From Aliarcobacter sp. (GTDB lineage: Bacteria > Campylobacterota > Campylobacteria > Campylobacterales > Arcobacteraceae): 64,000 nucleotides of DNA. The stretch lies in NCBI GenBank assembly GCA_028688995.1, contig JAQTXB010000010.1, positions 29,948 through 93,947 of the forward strand. The letters are read 5' to 3'. Each line of letters begins with the position of its first letter. The stretch's first letter is position 1. Position numbers and translations under genes: made by a program. Shown here one piece after another: positions 11,985 through 33,578 of the stretch. Under the pieces are notes generated by a model. That model saw nothing but the letters and a program-made list of their open reading frames with translations. It did no database searches and was not told the DNA's origin.

Positions 11985-12104
11985 AATTAACTCCAACTTT
12001 TCTAATTTTATACTTATATCATTTTTTATCTCAGAATAAATTAAAAACAATTTTTTGCCCTTAATATGATTTTAGATACAATTGCAAAAAATTATAGGAC
12101 TATT

Positions 12105-13259
12105 ATGAGTGAACAAATAGAAACATCTTTATGCCATATTGCAAAATTTGCACCTTTTAACGATATTAGTGGCGCTTCTCACTTTCCAATTTATAACACT
12201 GGAACATTTGATTTAAAAAAACAAACTGGCGATAAAATTTATGATTATACAAGAAGTGACAATCCAACACGGGAAGTTTTAGAAAATCTATTTACTCATG
12301 TTGAAGGTGGAGCTGGTTGTGTTTGTACTCATACAGGAATTGCATGTGTATCTTTATTATTTGAAACTGTTTTAAAAGCAAATTCACATATTTTAGTTGA
12401 AGCGGATTGTTATGGTGGAACTTTTAGATTATTAAAAATCTTTAAAGAAAAATATAATGTTACTGTTCATTTTGCAAACTTTTTAGATTTTGAAATGTTA
12501 GAACATATTTTAAAAACAAATCCTATAGACTTAGTTTTATGCGAAAGCCCAACAAATCCAGGTTTAAAAATTATAGATTTGAAACAAGTGGCTGATTTAT
12601 CTCATAAATATGATGCTTTATTTGCTGTTGATAATTCCCTTGCAACTTTTATATCTCAAAGACCTTTAGAGTTTGGAGCTGATTTTTCACTTTTCTCAAC
12701 AACAAAATATATTTCAGGTCATGGAAGTGTAGTTGCTGGTGCAATCGTTGCAAAAACAAAAGAGCTATCACAACAAATTCACTACTATGCAAATGCCCAT
12801 GGAAGAAGTCAAAATCCTATGGATGTATTTTTAATAAGTCTTGGAATTCCAACATTAAAAGTTCGAATGATTGAGCATGAAAAAAACTCTATATTAATTG
12901 CTAAATTCCTAGAAGAACAAGATTATATAAAAAAAGTTACTCACCCTGCCTTAGAATCTCATCCACAATATGAATTGGCAAAAAAACAGATGCAGTTTAT
13001 TCCTGGATTATTTTGTGTTGATTTTATTAGTGTTGAATTAGCTGAACAATTTATCGAAAAAACAAAAATATTTGGGGAAAAATGCTCATTTGGAAGTCCT
13101 GATAGTAGAGTTGAAATTCCTGCAAAAATTTCCCATGCAAGTTTTTCAAAAGAAGAATTAGCAGCTATTGGAATTAGTGATAGTACAGTTAGATTTTCTA
13201 TTGGTTTAGAAAGTGTAGAAGATTTAATAAATGATATTAAACAAGCAGTAAAAAAGTAG
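12105..13259 (+). CDS. Cys/Met metabolism PLP-dependent enzyme (cystathionine gamma-synthase/lyase-like)
   Basis: DLVLCESPTNPGLKIIDL, VDNSLATFISQRPLEFGADFSLFSTTKYISGHGSVVAGAIV (PLP Lys), RFSIGLESVEDLINDI. Confidence 0.88.
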   Translation: MSEQIETSLCHIAKFAPFNDISGASHFPIYNTGTFDLKKQTGDKIYDYTRSDNPTREVLENLFTHVEGGAGCVCTHTGIACVSLLFETVLKANSHILVEADCYGGTFRLLKIFKEKYNVTVHFANFLDFEMLEHILKTNPIDLVLCESPTNPGLKIIDLKQVADLSHKYDALFAVDNSLATFISQRPLEFGADFSLFSTTKYISGHGSVVAGAIVAKTKELSQQIHYYANAHGRSQNPMDVFLISLGIPTLKVRMIEHEKNSILIAKFLEEQDYIKKVTHPALESHPQYELAKKQMQFIPGLFCVDFISVELAEQFIEKTKIFGEKCSFGSPDSRVEIPAKISHASFSKEELAAIGISDSTVRFSIGLESVEDLINDIKQAVKK

Positions 13260-13269
13260 AACTACATAG

Positions 13270-14763
13270 ATGAATGACTTAATCTTTACACCAATTGCTT
13301 GTGGACAAACTCTACCAGTTAATAACATTCATGCTGTTTCTGTTTCTATGCCAGAACTTCAAGATGTTATTGATTACGAAGAGCAAACTGCTGAAATTTT
13401 AGAAAAAATCACAAGTGCATATCCAAGATTTGTGATGCACCCTTATTTAAAACTTTTGGCAACTTTTATAAAAGAGAAATATAAAGTTTCAAATGCCTAT
13501 GAAGTTGTACTTTTAAGCTCTCAAAAAGCTGTAGATGTTGTAAGTAGCAAATATTTCATTCATAATAAAATAGAAATCAATGAGCCTTTTGGAGTAATTT
13601 TAGTTCAAAATGGAACATCACAACTTCAAAAAGTTTTAAAGTTTATTCAACATGTGGGTTATAATTTATCTTCAAGGTTAGCAGAAGATTATTTATTTGA
13701 TGTTGGTTTATTAAATACTAAACATCAAGAAGAGTTAGATGATGCAAAAACAGCTTATGATAATCTAACTTCAACATTAGCAAAAGCGTATAATCAACCA
13801 CAAAAAAATGTTTGTTTAACTCCATCTGGAATGAATGCAGTTTATTGTGCCCTAAGAGGTTTAAGAACAATTCAAAATAAAAATGGAAAAACAAAATTAA
13901 TTCAACTTGGTTGGTTATATCTTGATACTATGAATATAGTTGAGCACTATTTTGATGAAAATAAAATATTTTATGATATTAATAATCTAGATGTTGTTGA
14001 AAATTATTTAAAAACTAATGGACATACAATTTCAGCAATAATCACAGAAATTCCAACAAATCCCCTACTTCAAACTGTGGATTTACCAAGACTAAAAAAT
14101 CTTTGTTTGAAATATAATATTGTTTTAGTAATTGATGCAACTTTTGCAACACCTTTTAATATGGATTTAAAACCTTATGCAGATGTTTATGTGGAATCAC
14201 TTACAAAATTTGCAAGTGGAAATGCAGATGTTTTAATGGGAGCTGTTATTTTAAATGAAAATTCTAAAATTGCTATGATTTCTCAAGAGTTTTTTAAACA
14301 CGCTGACATGCCATATATAAAAGATATTCAAAGACTTAGTTTTGAAATAAAAAATTATGAAAAAAGAATGAAAACTATCTCAGAAAATACAAAAAAATTA
14401 GTTGAATACTTTAAAAAAGCACCTTTTATAGATGAAATTTTTTATTGTTTAAATCCTAAATATGCTTCAAATTATCAAAAACTAATGATTAATGAAAACT
14501 GCTATACAGGAATAATTTCTGTTACATTTAAAAAAGATTTTGAAAAGATTTACAATAAGTTAAATTTTGCAAAAGGTCCTAGTTTAGGAACAGAATTTAC
14601 TCTTTTAATGCCTTATACTTATCTAGCTCACTACGATTTAGTTACTTCAAAAAGTGGTCAAGAGTTTTTAAAACAAATTGGACTTCCAATAAATCTTCTT
14701 CGTATTTCTGTTGGTTGTGAAGATATAAATGAGATTATAAAAGAGTTTGAAAAAGCAAATTAA
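13270..14763 (+). CDS. Cys/Met metabolism PLP-dependent enzyme, longer paralogue
   Basis: ITEIPTNPLLQTVDLPRLKNL, VIDATFATPFNMDLKPYADVYVESLTKFASGNADVLMGAVIL, LLRISVGCEDINEIIKEFEKA; extra N-terminal ~100 aa. Confidence 0.82.
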   Translation: MNDLIFTPIACGQTLPVNNIHAVSVSMPELQDVIDYEEQTAEILEKITSAYPRFVMHPYLKLLATFIKEKYKVSNAYEVVLLSSQKAVDVVSSKYFIHNKIEINEPFGVILVQNGTSQLQKVLKFIQHVGYNLSSRLAEDYLFDVGLLNTKHQEELDDAKTAYDNLTSTLAKAYNQPQKNVCLTPSGMNAVYCALRGLRTIQNKNGKTKLIQLGWLYLDTMNIVEHYFDENKIFYDINNLDVVENYLKTNGHTISAIITEIPTNPLLQTVDLPRLKNLCLKYNIVLVIDATFATPFNMDLKPYADVYVESLTKFASGNADVLMGAVILNENSKIAMISQEFFKHADMPYIKDIQRLSFEIKNYEKRMKTISENTKKLVEYFKKAPFIDEIFYCLNPKYASNYQKLMINENCYTGIISVTFKKDFEKIYNKLNFAKGPSLGTEFTLLMPYTYLAHYDLVTSKSGQEFLKQIGLPINLLRISVGCEDINEIIKEFEKAN

Positions 14764-24676: not shown

Positions 24677-25522
24677 ATGAAAAATGAATCTTTAGAATCA
24701 AAAGTTATCTGGAAATCAGAATATAATATTCATAATTTTAAATTAGATAAAGAACATCAAAAGCTATTTAATATCGCTAGAGATGCTATGAATATTTCAA
24801 AACTAAAAGATGATGAAGAAGTTAGAATGAAATTAAAAGAGATTATTTCTAAACTTTTTAATTATGTTAAAACTCATTTCGTTGAAGAACAAATTTATAT
24901 GGAAAAAATAAATTATCCAGAAATAGAAGAACACAAATTTCTTCATAAAAATATTATAACAATGTTAACAACACTAATTCCTTCATTAAATAATTTATCA
25001 TTAAAAGAGATTGAACAATCCCTTTTTAATTTTATTGAAGAGTACTTTATAAAACATATAATAATTGAAGATAAAAAAATTGAATTATGGAAATCTTCTA
25101 TTGCATCTTTAAAAAGAAATTTTCACTGGAAAGATATTTACAACATAGGTATAGAAGAACTTGATAATGAACATAAAGAACTTTTTGAAATAGTTCAAGA
25201 GTTATTTGAAGATATAGAAATAGGTTTTAAACGTCAAAAAATAAAAGAAGTTTTAACAAATTTATATACTCATCTTAATATTCATTTTAAAAATGAAGAA
25301 AATTATATGAGAAAAATCAATTATCCACACTTTAAAAAACACAAAACATCCCATAAATATATTATGGAAAGTATAAATAATTTTGTTAAAGAGTTATTAG
25401 ATTTAGAAGAAAATATGTTTGAAAGAGAGTTTGTAAGAATATTAAACATTACTTTTGTTTATCATATTATTAATGAAGACAAAAAAATCATTATCTGGGA
25501 AAAAATAAATTTATTAAATTAA
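24677..25522 (+). CDS. Tandem two-domain bacteriohemerythrin
   Basis: Two hemerythrin ligand sets: EHQKLF/HFVEEQIYM/HKFLH/HIIIED and EHKELF/HFKNEENYM/HKTSH/HIINED. Confidence 0.92.
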   Translation: MKNESLESKVIWKSEYNIHNFKLDKEHQKLFNIARDAMNISKLKDDEEVRMKLKEIISKLFNYVKTHFVEEQIYMEKINYPEIEEHKFLHKNIITMLTTLIPSLNNLSLKEIEQSLFNFIEEYFIKHIIIEDKKIELWKSSIASLKRNFHWKDIYNIGIEELDNEHKELFEIVQELFEDIEIGFKRQKIKEVLTNLYTHLNIHFKNEENYMRKINYPHFKKHKTSHKYIMESINNFVKELLDLEENMFEREFVRILNITFVYHIINEDKKIIIWEKINLLN

Positions 25523-25747: not shown

Positions 25748-26614
25748 TTAATACAAATTTTTATTTACAAAATAGCAATTATCTAAAAATGAACTATCCA
25801 AAATATATAAAATCAAAATAATCATCAATACAAAAATTGTGATTCCTAAAATATAACCATTTTGTGAGAAACTTTTAAAAATATTTCTATCTTTAAACTT
25901 TTTTGTAATCAAAGATAGTTTGTTAAATTTGACCATTACATTTTCACAAGCAACTTCACAAAGTCCACACTGAATACATCTTATATCAAAACCTGCTTTT
26001 ATATCAAGGTCATCAATAGGACAGATTTTTACACATTTTTCACAACTTATACAACTCTTTTTATCAAAAAACTCAAAAGTTTGTTTTTTCTCTTGTGGCA
26101 AAATTGCACTCACAAAAAAATAAGGGCATAAAATAGAACAATACCACGCTCGAAATACTAAAAATATACTTGTAAATCCTGTTGTTAAAATTCCAACAAA
26201 AATTGAAGCTGTATCAAATTTTGTAAAATTTAAAAACAAATCAACAGCTGATGTAAAATATGAAATAGTTGAAAAGGCTAAAATAAAAGCAAATGACATA
26301 ATCGCAAAAAAAAGAACAAAAGGATTTTTTAGTTTCATAGCAATAATCGAAGCAAGAGAAGTTGGACAAAAATATCCACAAAAAAATCTTGATATAGTTA
26401 AATTTAATCCTACTAATAATCCAATAATTAGAGTAATTACAATATAAATCAACTGATGAGTTGAAGCTTCAAAAGCCATACATAAAAACTCAAATCTATG
26501 AAACTCAAAATTAAACATCAACAAATGAATATCATTGAAACTTAACCATGGAAATAGAATATACAAAAAAAAGGTAATCAATAAAGATGGAGCTAAAATC
26601 TGTTTTTTTGCCAT
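25748..26614 (-). CDS. NapH/CcoG-like polyferredoxin membrane protein
   Basis: TM segments, CGYFCP and CSILCP motifs, CISCEKCVKICP and CIQCGLCEVAC 4Fe-4S motifs. Confidence 0.85.
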   Translation of the reverse strand: MAKKQILAPSLLITFFLYILFPWLSFNDIHLLMFNFEFHRFEFLCMAFEASTHQLIYIVITLIIGLLVGLNLTISRFFCGYFCPTSLASIIAMKLKNPFVLFFAIMSFAFILAFSTISYFTSAVDLFLNFTKFDTASIFVGILTTGFTSIFLVFRAWYCSILCPYFFVSAILPQEKKQTFEFFDKKSCISCEKCVKICPIDDLDIKAGFDIRCIQCGLCEVACENVMVKFNKLSLITKKFKDRNIFKSFSQNGYILGITIFVLMIILILYILDSSFLDNCYFVNKNLY

Positions 26615-27066
26615 AAGTCTATCCTTTGTTCTGGTGGTAAAGTACCATTTTCATATAAATTGTTTTTAAGATTATTTATCAATCTACTAATCAAATTTTC
26701 GTTAAAAGTGTGATATTTTTTTACAATTCCACCTTTCTTATCAAAAATCAAAATATAAGGTACACTCTTTGTCACTCCAAAATTTTTAGAATCATTAAGT
26801 GAAATAGAGCTTGTTTTTAGATTAGAAGTTTGTTTTATTGAAGTTGGAATATCTTCATCTACAAAAAGTAAAGTTATGAAAATCTCACTATTTTTTTCTC
26901 CTAAAGAGACTAAATAATCATTTGTCTTAATACAAACAGGACACCATGAAGTTACAAAAGCAACAATATTTATTTTATCTTTTTCTATATTTTCAAAAGA
27001 AAAAGAGGTAGCAAAAGCCACCTCTTTTAATATAAAAAATAGAAAAATTATCTTGACTATTTTCAT
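26593..27066 (-). CDS. Thioredoxin-like (TlpA-type) exported protein
   Basis: Signal peptide; VTSWCPVCIKTNDYL (WCxxC) redox motif; overlaps neighbouring gene. Confidence 0.8.
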   Translation of the reverse strand: MKIVKIIFLFFILKEVAFATSFSFENIEKDKINIVAFVTSWCPVCIKTNDYLVSLGEKNSEIFITLLFVDEDIPTSIKQTSNLKTSSISLNDSKNFGVTKSVPYILIFDKKGGIVKKYHTFNENLISRLINNLKNNLYENGTLPPEQRIDLWQKNRF

Positions 27067-28391
27067 TTATTTGTATCTTTTAAAGAAAGAATCCAATCTA
27101 CAAGTATTAAAGCTTCATCAGCTGTTACATCTTGAGCTGGCATTGGAATAACATCATATTTATTTACACTTCCGTATTGAATAGAGTGAATTAAAACATC
27201 TTTGTTTCTTTCTTTATTTGAAACTTCTAAATAAGAAGGTCCAACTAATTTAACATCTACACTATGACAAGCTAAACACCCTTTTGATTCAGCTAAAACT
27301 ACTGGATTTTTTAAATCCATTGCAGGTTTATTAGCTAATTCTTCTTTATATTTTTTATATTCTGCAATTGAAGCTGTCATAAACTCAGAAGTAGCTTGAG
27401 CTTGAAGAGCAAGTGGTTCTTCAAAAGATACAACTCTTACACCTTCTCTTGTTGTTGCCATTAAAAAAATTGAAACTACCACTAGAGCTATTGCTCTTAA
27501 AGCTGTTTGAGAAGTTACTACCTCATCATTAAATTTATTTAATACATATAAAAATGCAATAATTAAAAATATTGAAGATATAAATGGTAAATAAATAAAT
27601 CCTGTATGCATTAAAGCTTCACTAATTCTTGCTGTAAATACAAATGGTAATAAAGGCATTACAACTATATTTAAAGGAGTTGCAAGTAAAAACCATTTTT
27701 TACCTTGGCTAATTGCAATTTTTCCTACTTCAATCTCACCTTTTTTTACCCATCTAGCACCTATAAATATCATAACAACACCTGTTGCCATAAATGCTGT
27801 TAAAAAGAAATTTAAAAGTCTAAATCCAGTAACAGGAGTAAACATAATGTCCCAAATATTATTTATAGTTGCAAATAATTCTGGTTGCATATAAAGATTT
27901 GTCATTGACATAAATACAAAAGGTAAAGTAAAAAATGCCAATACAGCTGATAATCCAATTGCTATATGAAAACCTTTATGATTTTGTAAAGCATGCCATG
28001 AAAATTTATAAGCATAAGAAAGTAAAAAGGCAATGATATTTCCATAAATAATATGTAAAATATGTGGACTAACTTTCAAAATTGCAGTATAAAAAAATCC
28101 TGTAAAAAGTACAGAAATTACAAGTAAAGGAGCAACTCCCCATAAAGCACCCATATTTTCTGATACTGTTGTATAGTTTGTCATTCTATATGCAAACTTA
28201 TCATAATTTGAATCTTTTTTAAATACACCCATAATATTATAAATAACAGAAGCAGTTGAAGCACCAATTAACATATAAATAAAACAGATATGAACAACAA
28301 AAACTATAATTCCCAAAATACTAAAAAACTCTAAAGGAAGTCCTAAAGTTGGTGTAATTAATGGAATATCAAATGGTAATTTCCAATTCAT
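27063..28391 (-). CDS. Multi-TM membrane protein with C-terminal cytochrome c domain (partner of CydA-like subunit)
   Basis: About 8-9 hydrophobic segments; C-terminal GCLACHSVDVKLVGP...DVIPMPAQ (CxxCH and distal Met). Confidence 0.8.
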   Translation of the reverse strand: MNWKLPFDIPLITPTLGLPLEFFSILGIIVFVVHICFIYMLIGASTASVIYNIMGVFKKDSNYDKFAYRMTNYTTVSENMGALWGVAPLLVISVLFTGFFYTAILKVSPHILHIIYGNIIAFLLSYAYKFSWHALQNHKGFHIAIGLSAVLAFFTLPFVFMSMTNLYMQPELFATINNIWDIMFTPVTGFRLLNFFLTAFMATGVVMIFIGARWVKKGEIEVGKIAISQGKKWFLLATPLNIVVMPLLPFVFTARISEALMHTGFIYLPFISSIFLIIAFLYVLNKFNDEVVTSQTALRAIALVVVSIFLMATTREGVRVVSFEEPLALQAQATSEFMTASIAEYKKYKEELANKPAMDLKNPVVLAESKGCLACHSVDVKLVGPSYLEVSNKERNKDVLIHSIQYGSVNKYDVIPMPAQDVTADEALILVDWILSLKDTNK

Positions 28392-29788
28392 TTTATAACT
28401 CCTTTAGTATTTAAAGATTTAATATAAGCTGCAAGTGCATCTTTTTCAGCTTCAGTTCCAACAAATGGAGGCATATATGGAGTTCCACCACCAGGAAGAT
28501 TATTTAATCTATTTCTAATAGCATCATGTGACCAACCTGTTGTTAAGAATTTAAGTCCATTAATTCCATTTTGGGTATGACAAATACGACACTCTATTTG
28601 GAAAATAGACTTCCCTACTTCTAAAATATTTGATTTGTCTTCATTTACTCGTTTTTTCTTTTCATCTAAAAAAACAGCATGTTCTAAAATACCAACTTTA
28701 TTCAAGTATGGAACATCTGTAACTCTAATTCCATTTGAATACATATAGTTATAAATTAAAAAAGGTTTTCGTATAAACTCTCTTACTCTTTCTTCATATC
28801 CCCAAAGAACTAAAAATCCTGCAACCATTAAACTAGCTGCTAAGTAAGGCATTCTTTTTGGAGAAAAATAAGCAATAATTGTTGTGATAATAATACTTCC
28901 ACCAATACCTATAGCAATTAGATACATTAAATCAAATCTATCTTCAAATGCTCTTGTCATAACTGCTGTTGGTATCATGGCAAGTGCTGCTGCTGGAATT
29001 TCTGTGTAATACCAATAACCAAAAATTGCACTAATTGGAACAGTTATCAGCATAATTCCTGCTAAAAATTTTACTAATCTTGCTTTTGCTTCCTTGTCTT
29101 CTTCATTTTTTGAAAAAGTTGCGATGATCCAAGTCCACATTATTGCAAGAGCTGCTGCAAAGGCAATTGATGTAAATGTTCTAAAGGCAAGTGAAGGCCA
29201 CCAAGTTGGATTAAATAAGGCATTGTTATAGTTTACATTTCCAGGATAAACTTCAGGGTCAACCCAAGGTTGTCCATCAAAATTTGGAGTAAGCATAAAT
29301 GCTAAAATAGCTGTAATAATAACCATAGTTAACCATGAAGAAATAGCATAATAAACACCAATTCTTATAGTCTTAGCTCTGCCTTGTGCAGTTTCTTGAT
29401 TTTTTTTCCAACTCATAAATAGTAAAAGTAAAAGTACAACTTCAAAGTTAAATACAATCCACTCTATAAACCATTTCCAGAAAAATACTCTAATAAGCCC
29501 ACCTATTGCATTTGGACTTAAAATATTGGCATGAATCCACATACCAACACCTGTTAATGCTCCAACTGATGTAGATACAATAAAGAAAACCATAACAACT
29601 TTAAATGTTAAGTTATATGCTGCCATATCGTTTTTCTTATTTGCCCACCAAGCCATTGCAGCTAATACAATTGATCCACCAACTGCTCCTCCATGAGATA
29701 CAAAAACATGAATAATTGCGTTTATAGCCATTAGCATTCTTTGACCTATAAAAGGCATCTCAAAAATGGGGTAATCAAACATACCCAA
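28388..29788 (-). CDS. CydA-like (bd oxidase subunit I-like) membrane protein with C-terminal cytochrome c domain
   Basis: GQRMLMAINAIIHVFVSHGG..., TSVGALTGVGMW, NPTWWPSLAFRTFTSIAFA resemble CydA; C-terminal ECRICHTQNG...GTPYMPPF. Confidence 0.78.
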   Translation of the reverse strand: MGMFDYPIFEMPFIGQRMLMAINAIIHVFVSHGGAVGGSIVLAAMAWWANKKNDMAAYNLTFKVVMVFFIVSTSVGALTGVGMWIHANILSPNAIGGLIRVFFWKWFIEWIVFNFEVVLLLLLFMSWKKNQETAQGRAKTIRIGVYYAISSWLTMVIITAILAFMLTPNFDGQPWVDPEVYPGNVNYNNALFNPTWWPSLAFRTFTSIAFAAALAIMWTWIIATFSKNEEDKEAKARLVKFLAGIMLITVPISAIFGYWYYTEIPAAALAMIPTAVMTRAFEDRFDLMYLIAIGIGGSIIITTIIAYFSPKRMPYLAASLMVAGFLVLWGYEERVREFIRKPFLIYNYMYSNGIRVTDVPYLNKVGILEHAVFLDEKKKRVNEDKSNILEVGKSIFQIECRICHTQNGINGLKFLTTGWSHDAIRNRLNNLPGGGTPYMPPFVGTEAEKDALAAYIKSLNTKGVIK

Positions 29789-29890: not shown

Positions 29891-30568
29891 TTATTTGATA
29901 TTTATTTTATAGCCATTTACTCGGCTTGAACTTATAATATCGTTACCTAAAAGTTGTCTAATCTTATGAATATGAAAACGAATTACTCCCATTTTAGAGT
30001 TGCTATTTGCAGGATATGCTCCTTTTTCTAAACTTTGTGTGGAAACATAATATCCTCTAAATTTTAATAAATAATCAAGTATTAATAAAGCTTTATCACC
30101 TAAAATTATTTCATCTTTATTTTGTAATACTTTTTTATTAAAAATTTCATATTTAGTATTTTCTTTTAAAACTATAGAATCTGTATATACTTTATATTGT
30201 CTTCGAATCAGAGCTTTTATTCTTAATACAATTTCATCTTCATCTATATTTCTAATTACACACTCATCACAACCTGATAAAAAAGAGGGTTTGATTATAT
30301 TTGGAATTGAAGCAATTACCATTTTCATTGTAATATCTTTATAATCATTTAAAAGTTGAATTAGTTGAAACCTTGGGAGTGATTTTTCATTAATATTTAT
30401 CAAATACAAATCATACAAATTATTATAAATACACTCCAAAAATTCACTGTTATTACAGCAAATATCCACATAAAAATCATTGTTTTTTAAAATTTCAATA
30501 ATTTGAGAGATTGAACTATCATTACTTTCTAAAACTAAAATTTTTACGGCTTTCAATGTTTTCTCCAA
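29891..30568 (-). CDS. OmpR-like winged-helix regulator with degenerate receiver
   Basis: C-terminal winged helix GVIRFHIHKIRQLLGNDIISSSRVNGYKI; receiver-like N-terminus with DLYLININ where LLD is expected. Confidence 0.8.
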   Translation of the reverse strand: MEKTLKAVKILVLESNDSSISQIIEILKNNDFYVDICCNNSEFLECIYNNLYDLYLININEKSLPRFQLIQLLNDYKDITMKMVIASIPNIIKPSFLSGCDECVIRNIDEDEIVLRIKALIRRQYKVYTDSIVLKENTKYEIFNKKVLQNKDEIILGDKALLILDYLLKFRGYYVSTQSLEKGAYPANSNSKMGVIRFHIHKIRQLLGNDIISSSRVNGYKINIK

Positions 30569-31218: not shown

Positions 31219-32682
31219 TTAGAATTTATTAGCATTTAAAAATAACAATAATCCCAAAACAAACATAAAAATTGGTGAAGCTATTTCCAAAATATTTACC
31301 AATTTTGTTGATTTTTGTGAGGCTTTATTTAAAGAAACTCCTAAAAATGAAGAGATAAAAATCACCAATGCCATTCCAAAACTAATACTAATACTTGCAA
31401 GTATAACTGCAAAATATGTTTTTAATAAAAAGGCATAAACAAAAAGTAAAACTGTTCCAGGACAAGGAATTATTCCAGCAGTTAGAAGAAAAATCAAATC
31501 TTGTTTTTTACTTCTTAAAGGAGTAATTACAGGTTTATTTGAAGCTGCTTTTACAAAATTCATATTAGATGAAACTGCTGTGAAATTTGCAGTTTTTAAA
31601 TCCACACTACAACAAACACATGATTTTTTGCTCAACTTTCTATACAAAATATAAACTGCAAGTAACATAATAATCAAAGCTGAAAAACTTGTAATATAAG
31701 AAACCGAATCTTGCATAAATCTATTTAACACACTTTGTAAAACAAATACTGAAAATAAAACTATAGTTAAAGCTCCAAGAATATGGACTAATGCCGTAGC
31801 AAGAGAGATTATTAAAGCTTGAAAAACAGAACTTTTTTGAGAACTAAAATATGAAAAAGCTAAAGCTTTTCCATGACCAGGTCCAAAAGCATGAATAACT
31901 CCATATAAAAAAGAAGCCATTAATAAAAAGAATAAGGCAGATTTATCTTCACCTTTTTGAATTGCTATTAAATATTTTTTTATATTTTGTGTGAATTTTT
32001 CTAAAATATTTTGAGTTTGTGTTTGAGTATTTACAGAAGTTTGAACTTGTTTTGGTTCTATTTTTTCTTCAATTTTTTCTATCTTAGCAGGAACATCTTC
32101 TTTTACACTATCTTCTTGCACACCTAAAGTTGGTGCATCAATCTTAAAACTAACATCATTAATATTTATTTTTTGTTCAATTTTGTAAGGTATATACATT
32201 AACTGTTTTTGAGGATTAAATACTATATCAAAATAGTTTTCATCATCTATTATTTTAATATATAAAATATTTTTATCATAAATTTTATAGTTTAAATCAA
32301 TATTATATTCAAAACTCAAAGTTGAGTTTTTATAACTCATTTTGTAATCTTTTACTTTGTAATTATCTGATTTTTCATTAATTTGTTTATCATATGAGAT
32401 TGTAGTAATATAGTTTTTTCGCTCTAAATAATCAACCAAATATGATTGAATAACAGCTAACTCTTTTTCATTAAAAGTTCCATCTAAATTTGTGTCATAA
32501 ATTTGTAATAACTCTTTTGTAAATTCATTTGCAAAAGTCCAATTTATTCGGATAGTTTTTATATACTCTTTGTCTGCTTTTATTTGGGTATCAACATGGG
32601 TTCGGGGAGTGTAAATAGCACATAAAGAACATCCAAAAAGGATGTCCTTTAAAATAAAAAATATTAAAAAATATTTTATCAT
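31219..32682 (-). CDS. DUF1007-NicO fusion (ZevA-ZevB-like metal permease)
   Basis: N-terminal exported domain with EF-hand-like DTNLDGTFNEKE; C-terminal NicO-type permease with HAFGPGHGKALAFSYF. Confidence 0.78.
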   Translation of the reverse strand: MIKYFLIFFILKDILFGCSLCAIYTPRTHVDTQIKADKEYIKTIRINWTFANEFTKELLQIYDTNLDGTFNEKELAVIQSYLVDYLERKNYITTISYDKQINEKSDNYKVKDYKMSYKNSTLSFEYNIDLNYKIYDKNILYIKIIDDENYFDIVFNPQKQLMYIPYKIEQKININDVSFKIDAPTLGVQEDSVKEDVPAKIEKIEEKIEPKQVQTSVNTQTQTQNILEKFTQNIKKYLIAIQKGEDKSALFFLLMASFLYGVIHAFGPGHGKALAFSYFSSQKSSVFQALIISLATALVHILGALTIVLFSVFVLQSVLNRFMQDSVSYITSFSALIIMLLAVYILYRKLSKKSCVCCSVDLKTANFTAVSSNMNFVKAASNKPVITPLRSKKQDLIFLLTAGIIPCPGTVLLFVYAFLLKTYFAVILASISISFGMALVIFISSFLGVSLNKASQKSTKLVNILEIASPIFMFVLGLLLFLNANKF

Positions 32683-33578
32683 TTATAACTGTTTGCAATT
32701 TGTTTAGCACTATTAAGAAGATTTTCGCTCCAGTTTTGTGCTAATGGGTCAATAGAAATTACAGTAGCTTGAATATTTTTTGAAATTGCTAAGGCACTTT
32801 TTTGTGAAAATTGAGGAGAACTAAAAATTATTTTTATATTATGTTTTTTTGCTTCATCCATTAACTCAACTAATTCAGCAGGTTTTGGCTCTTTTCCTTC
32901 AATCTCAATTGAAATCTCTTCTAAATTATATCTTTTTGCAAAATATCCCCAAGATGGATGAAATACCATAAATGCTTTTTCTTTATATGGTTCTAAAATT
33001 GTTTTAATATTTTCATCTAAAGCATCTATCTCTTTTAAGAACTCTTCATAATTCGTTTTATAAAAATCAGCATTCACTGAATCAACTTTTACCATTGTTT
33101 CATAAATATTTTTTGCTTGAATTTTTACTAAATTTGGGTCTAACCAAACATGTGGGTCTAAACCAGAATGGTCATGTTCTTCATGCTCATTTTCATGGTC
33201 ATGATTTTTTGCATCGCTATTTTTTTCATTTTCATCATGATGTTCATGTTTGGCCATTTCCATTTTCTCTATTCCATCTGTTGAATCAACAAACACTGTA
33301 TCTTTTGCACTTTGTTTAAATTTATCCAACCAAACTTGCTCAAACGAAACTCCCGTATAAAAATAAACTTTTGATGCAACTAAAGATTTCATTTGAGATG
33401 ATTTTGGCTCATAAGTATGAGGTGAAGCACCTGGTTTTACCATAACATTTATTTCATATTTGTCTTTTACTATTTTTTCAAGAAAATATTTTTGAGGCAA
33501 AATACTTACTGACAATTCTGGTTTTGATGCGTGTAAAAATGACATTATTGTTAAAAAAATAAATACAATTTTTTTCAA
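32679..33578 (-). CDS. znuA: Zinc ABC-type substrate-binding protein, ZnuA family
   Basis: GASPHTYEPKSSQMK, His-rich loop MAKHEHHDENEKNSDAKNHDHENEHEEHDHS, DPHVWLDP, FMVFHPSWGYFAKRY. Confidence 0.9.
   Translation of the reverse strand: MKKIVFIFLTIMSFLHASKPELSVSILPQKYFLEKIVKDKYEINVMVKPGASPHTYEPKSSQMKSLVASKVYFYTGVSFEQVWLDKFKQSAKDTVFVDSTDGIEKMEMAKHEHHDENEKNSDAKNHDHENEHEEHDHSGLDPHVWLDPNLVKIQAKNIYETMVKVDSVNADFYKTNYEEFLKEIDALDENIKTILEPYKEKAFMVFHPSWGYFAKRYNLEEISIEIEGKEPKPAELVELMDEAKKHNIKIIFSSPQFSQKSALAISKNIQATVISIDPLAQNWSENLLNSAKQIANSYK

Follow-up and report, generated by a model that had tools for sequence, protein, structure and literature searches.

The cytochrome bd enzymes known to us oxidise quinol, as the archaeal CydAA' was reportedly found to do in a paper from 2021. 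In the OR-C family, the CydA subunit reportedly carries a c-type haem domain (Murali 2021). Later papers divide the bd superfamily into the qOR, OR-C and OR-N families, and according to PMC10839748 and PMC13189123 the members of OR-C and OR-N that lack a quinol site were described on phylogenetic grounds (Murali 2021); the OR-C family of Murali, Gennis and Hemp 2021 is cited also in PMC11707229. In such papers, the OR-N CydAA' probably takes cytochrome c as its donor, which is a proposal only. The literature open to searching contained no biochemical study of an OR-C enzyme, and none appears to have been purified.

The window analysed here, a stretch of 64,000 nucleotides from an Aliarcobacter sp. 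genome (contig JAQTXB010000010.1), contains four genes for a bd-superfamily enzyme that lacks a quinol site and carries a haem c domain on both subunits, together with a dedicated accessory set, a description that is well supported. The genes encode two membrane subunits, A and A', a thioredoxin, T, and a polyferredoxin, P, and a response regulator gene, RR, lies beside them (Table 1). The first-pass annotation, made from the sequence of the window, described four minus-strand genes overlapping by 4–22 bp, and the measured overlaps were 4, 4 and 22 bp. The CRICH and CLACH motifs that it placed at the ends of the two subunits were both found inside C-terminal class I cytochrome c domains, and its WCPVC motif was present in T. 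The open reading frame of A extends to a TTG at 29788 (28388–29788, 466 aa), but the ATG at 29782–29780 (464 aa) is most likely the start, since AGGGAGG precedes it by 8 nt and the Sulfuricurvum orthologues begin with MFDFPIF. The identical four-gene order was found in Aliarcobacter, one Arcobacteraceae MAG, Sulfuricurvum and genome G160, and this recurrence argues that the arrangement is not due to chance.

Table 1. Features of the oxidase-like gene cluster and its regulator, in positions of the window.
Feature	Positions	Strand	Assignment
A	28388..29782	(-)	Catalytic CydA-like subunit, 464 aa; 8 predicted TM helices and C-terminal haem c domain
A His27	29708..29710	(-)	Equivalent to Geobacillus CydA His21 and E. 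coli His19, axial ligand of high-spin haem; invariant in 80/80 relatives
A His32	29693..29695	(-)	Invariant among A relatives, without counterpart in canonical CydA
A Glu109 and Glu116	29441..29464	(-)	Equivalent to Geobacillus Glu101/Glu108 and E. coli Glu99/Glu107 (alignment to 5doq_A)
A Glu337 in RExxRKP	28778..28780	(-)	Proposed equivalent of Geobacillus Glu378 and E. coli Glu445 in AExGRQPW
A haem c site CRICH (400–404)	28577..28591	(-)	Met439 likely sixth ligand
A'	27063..28391	(-)	Second CydA paralogue, 442 aa; 8 predicted TM helices and C-terminal class I cytochrome c domain
A' His34	28290..28292	(-)	Equivalent to CydA His21/His19; invariant in 77/77
A' haem c site CLACH (372–376)	27264..27278	(-)	Met417 likely sixth ligand; limited to the double-c clade
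T	26593..27066	(-)	TlpA/ResA-like thioredoxin, 157 aa; signal-like N-terminus
T active-site motif WCPVC	26932..26946	(-)	
P	25748..26614	(-)	Membrane polyferredoxin, 288 aa; CcoG/NapH-like without the CcoG C-terminal part
RR	29891..30568	(-)	OmpR-type response regulator, 225 aa; degenerate receiver

In a single-sequence search of the PDB, A matched Geobacillus CydA with an E value of 5.4e-8. The best PDB matches of its AlphaFold model (pLDDT 82.8, built from 80 relatives) were found by Foldseek to be CydA chains, with CydB chains lower, and the bd-like fold proposed earlier was thus borne out by the structure comparison, in which the top matches of the models were all CydA. The TM-scores of the A and A' models to solved structures were moderate (0.5–0.6), as expected for remote homologues, and neither protein matched PF01654 (Cyt_bd_oxida_I) in Pfam at E values up to 0.1 or presented a COX1 domain in Pfam. 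The residues H27, E109, E116 and E337 of A were invariant in 80/80 relatives; H27, E109 and E116 were assigned from the phmmer alignment to 5doq, and the equivalence of E337 with E445 is a motif match made by eye. Alignment of A with canonical CydA by hhalign (probability 93%) also placed H27 on the H19-equivalent His, but shifted the Glu helix, and the phmmer alignment was chosen for this reason. No His was found between residues 190 and 330 of A, and the TM6–TM7 segment was 17 residues long in 80/80 relatives; the b558 His ligand and the Q-loop are therefore missing, and for the Q-loop this agrees with the first-pass annotation. Equivalents of the b558 ligands His186 and Met393 and of the Q-loop, features of canonical CydAB, were not found in A. 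The C-terminal domain of A corresponds to Pfam Cytochrome_CBB3, and CXXCH was present in all 80 A proteins aligned. By these features, rather than by a published OR-C profile, A fits the cytochrome-c-linked OR-C branch.

Similarly, A' matched Geobacillus CydA with an E value of 4.4e-5 in the single-sequence search, and the best PDB matches of its AlphaFold model (pLDDT 81.4, built from 77 relatives) were CydA chains, followed by CydB. The wide A' alignment, used as a profile against the PDB, found no CydA, and for this reason the homology of A' rests on the single-sequence match and the predicted fold. As judged from these, A' is a CydA paralogue and not a CydB-like partner: CydA chains ranked above CydB by structure, and no CydB match was obtained in Pfam. 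The earlier idea of a CydA and CydB-type pair was thus contradicted, both subunits being CydA paralogues, as in CydAA'. A' keeps R315 and R319, and both Glu positions (E99/E107) are absent. His161, conserved in 64 of the 68 ordinary A' proteins, is replaced by Met in the clade with two haem c domains (double-c clade), which additionally gains E78, H110, H113, H138, H142 and H262; H34 and position 161 may hold a relay haem b. The neighbour of the invariant R315, residue 316, is a Glu in the Aliarcobacter proteins and a His in those of Sulfuricurvum (L032–L036); this position is a possible counterpart of E445, a haem ligand in CydA. The C-terminal domain of A' was found to be closest to the cytochrome c551 family (E 7e-14). 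Descent of this domain from the small cytochromes encoded beside ordinary OR-C pairs was considered and rejected, as these are not close relatives (best E 5e-4); any argument that it replaces them therefore concerns role and not descent.

A scan of 84,980 species genomes yielded 80 A loci. At 68 ordinary loci, A is followed by a gene for an A' of about 340–440 aa without CXXCH (haem c on 0/68 of these other partners), and an A' with CXXCH was found only in Aliarcobacter, an Arcobacteraceae MAG and Sulfuricurvum, the only places where T and P follow. The earlier view that haem c on both subunits departs from canonical CydAB was supported; as an oddity, the haem c on A did not stand, since it is common to 80/80 relatives, and the one on A' did. 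What is distinctive and unusual is thus the combination of a haem c on A' with the T–P pair, and not the haem c of A. The double-c clade was separate in the tree (support 100/100, branch of 3.45 changes per column, with a root placed for drawing only), and the clade, on this deep separate branch, therefore did not split off recently from the ordinary enzymes of Campylobacterota. Of 397 Campylobacterota genomes, 10 contained the haem c-bearing A', and the same 10, and no others, contained T and P, T being counted across a gap in E values from 5e-55 to 1e-14, beyond which generic thioredoxins lie; as the three genes are adjacent, this co-occurrence shows travel and persistence as a unit and not independent gain. 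Within the genus, 9 of 31 genomes presented the double-c form, five the ordinary OR-C pair and 17 no oxidase of either type. The hosts of the clade are mesophilic Campylobacterota, and their genomes include complete ones in a single contig.

The present pair shares with OR-C the CydA core with its active-site ligands, the missing quinol site, the haem c domain on A and the A' partner gene, and differs from OR-C, as described in the citing papers, in the cytochrome c domain of A', in the dedicated T and P and in its deep separate clade. Like the OR-N CydAA' (the bd-like oxidase of Nitrospira and Nitrospinota), it comprises two CydA paralogues encoded together, without a quinol site and with cytochrome c as the suggested donor, whereas the bd-like oxidase of Nitrospina has 14 predicted TM helices and the models here present 8 TM helices and a fused haem c domain per subunit. 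Two CydA paralogues are also associated in the archaeal CydAA' (Caldivirga), but the present A lacks the Q-loop and the b558 His. The fold and the high-spin haem ligand positions are those of canonical CydAB (qOR), from which the pair differs by the lack of a PF01654 match, Q-loop, b558 His and CydB and by the added haem c. The first-pass annotation had called the complex uncharacterised, which is too broad for its type, as OR-C and OR-N members without a quinol site had already been described phylogenetically.

The C-terminal tail of T (ENGTLPxxxRxDxWxxxR) was found to be invariant and to be unmatched in generic thioredoxins. P carries two CX3CP and two CX2CX2CX3C (4Fe-4S) motifs, the second of the latter followed by E and not by P, and as a membrane protein with these motifs it resembles both CcoG (RdxA/FixG) and NapH. 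It differs from both in scoring below their curated cut-offs, and its CcoG match is incomplete: against TIGR02745 (CcoG) it reached 84.8 bits, under the cut-off of 316.7, and the match to the 435-position model stops at position 317. The NapH-like polyferredoxin of the first-pass annotation proved NapH/CcoG-like, with a stronger match to CcoG (E 6e-24) than to NapH (7e-6). The identity of P was 31–38% across the two families, compared with about 75% for A, and their association has therefore persisted through much divergence of P. By family resemblance, T and P probably function in assembly, in keeping with the redox or assembly role suggested earlier. In some Sulfuricurvum (L032, 4815–8829; L033, 14256–17102), the cluster is followed by genes for a TonB-dependent receptor, a DUF4198-like protein and a second NapH-like polyferredoxin, perhaps a metal or haem uptake set; the TonB receptor and NapH-like genes vary among the Sulfuricurvum loci and were left out of the parts of the system.

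The host genome (96% complete) was found to encode a Rieske–cytochrome b–dihaem cytochrome c operon, detected through PF00033, and a cbb3 oxidase, the sole COX1 match being ccoN on another contig. No canonical CydA was found in this genome, and the search for CydD gave only general ABC matches below the curated cut-off. Cytochrome c1 gave no match with PF02167, whose control matched just one genome. Among 50 ordinary OR-C loci with full coverage, 11 encoded a small haem c protein within 3 kb, compared with 2/50 farther off, and none of five double-c loci did so; in several Pseudomonadota, its gene lies directly after A'. Cytochrome c as the electron donor would be the simplest reading, since it is suggested by the bc1-type operon, the small haem c neighbours and the cytochrome c551-like domain of A'.

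It therefore appears fairly probable that A and A' form an OR-C-like, cytochrome-c-linked heterodimer of the bd superfamily that reduces O2, with T and P acting in its assembly and RR in its control. The haem c domains of A', A or both, on the periplasmic side, would receive electrons from the bc1 complex or from a small cytochrome c of the periplasm and hand them on to two high-spin haems in A, held by H27, E109/E116 and E337, where O2 would be reduced to water. A', in which only the H19-equivalent H34 is kept, would be the partner, possibly holding one relay haem b, and its fused c domain may stand in for the separate small cytochrome c encoded near many ordinary OR-C pairs. T would be a periplasmic thiol reductant and P a membrane Fe–S reductase, both most likely serving assembly by keeping the CXXCH thiols of the apocytochrome reduced or by handling a cofactor.

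The main rival to this assembly role is that P is an electron-input module, passing electrons from menaquinol or a cytoplasmic ferredoxin to haem c, in a four-protein oxidase independent of bc1. The NapH/CcoG-like nature of P, its strict linkage to the enzyme and the second c domain, to which P could dock, speak for such a chain, which is nevertheless unlikely: a NapG-like periplasmic ferredoxin is absent from the operon, P is nearer to CcoG than to NapH, T would have no place in a pure electron-input chain, and a bc1 operon exists in the host genome. A detoxifying c-type reductase that acts on a stress substrate (NO, peroxide or O2 to be scavenged), and not on O2 for energy, would accord with the detoxifying roles known for canonical bd enzymes, with cbb3 as the main oxidase and with the patchy distribution of the double-c form in the genus (9/31 genomes); we regard it as distinctly unlikely, as the active-site residues of the O2-reducing CydA are conserved in A and no NO-linked genes were found among the neighbours examined. 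It is highly doubtful, though conceivable, that electrons enter the core on both sides through the two fused haem c domains and that the remodelled A' site is loaded by T and P, possibly with copper; under that same joint reading, equally doubtful, a copper-loaded A' site would make this the first bd-type enzyme to be assisted by a metal. An electron-transfer unit (a cytochrome c shuttle or sensor) that is degenerate or non-catalytic and has lost its oxidase function, to which the missing b558 site and Q-loop and the loss of acidic ligands from A' could point, is very improbable, since relatives from several phyla (80/80) strictly conserve H27, E109, E116 and E337.

Orthologues of RR (57–100% identity) adjoin the oxidase in all 14 genus genomes with either type (nine double-c, five ordinary), the gene being broken in one of them (G019), and the 17 genus genomes without an oxidase gave RR matches of only about 33% identity or less. 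In most copies, the acidic pair of the receiver reads ES and the phospho-acceptor position is occupied by Asn; the copy in genome G010 keeps Asp, and relatives beside oxidases in G031 and L031 retain LEDD and Asp. RR most likely controls the oxidase genes. An identity with CemR (Abu0127) was discarded, as CemR has about 296 aa compared with the 225 aa of RR. With candidate assembly factors and a regulator in one compact locus, the system bears on whether a bd fold can act as a cytochrome c oxidase.

In G010, an ordinary OR-C pair takes the place of the four genes, with the RR, GNAT, NicO, ZnuA, Fur and NhaA flanks kept, and a 58-codon remnant of A was found beside the pair (L171, 8942–9115 and 6414–8951, respectively). 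Here one bd-type oxidase appears to have been replaced in place by another, which argues that the double-c and ordinary OR-C forms fill the same role, and this sister genome offers a natural comparison for the contribution of the second haem c. A NicO-type nickel/cobalt transporter fused to DUF1007 and a ZnuA-like binding protein (31219–33578) are kept beside the locus in several members of the genus. Beside the oxidase operon, just downstream of a PAS–GGDEF–EAL protein, a protein with two hemerythrin domains is encoded (24677–25522), with possible O2-linked signalling. Farther off in the window, two tandem PLP enzymes of Cys/Met metabolism were found (12066–14763), the second with a long N-terminal extension outside the domain.
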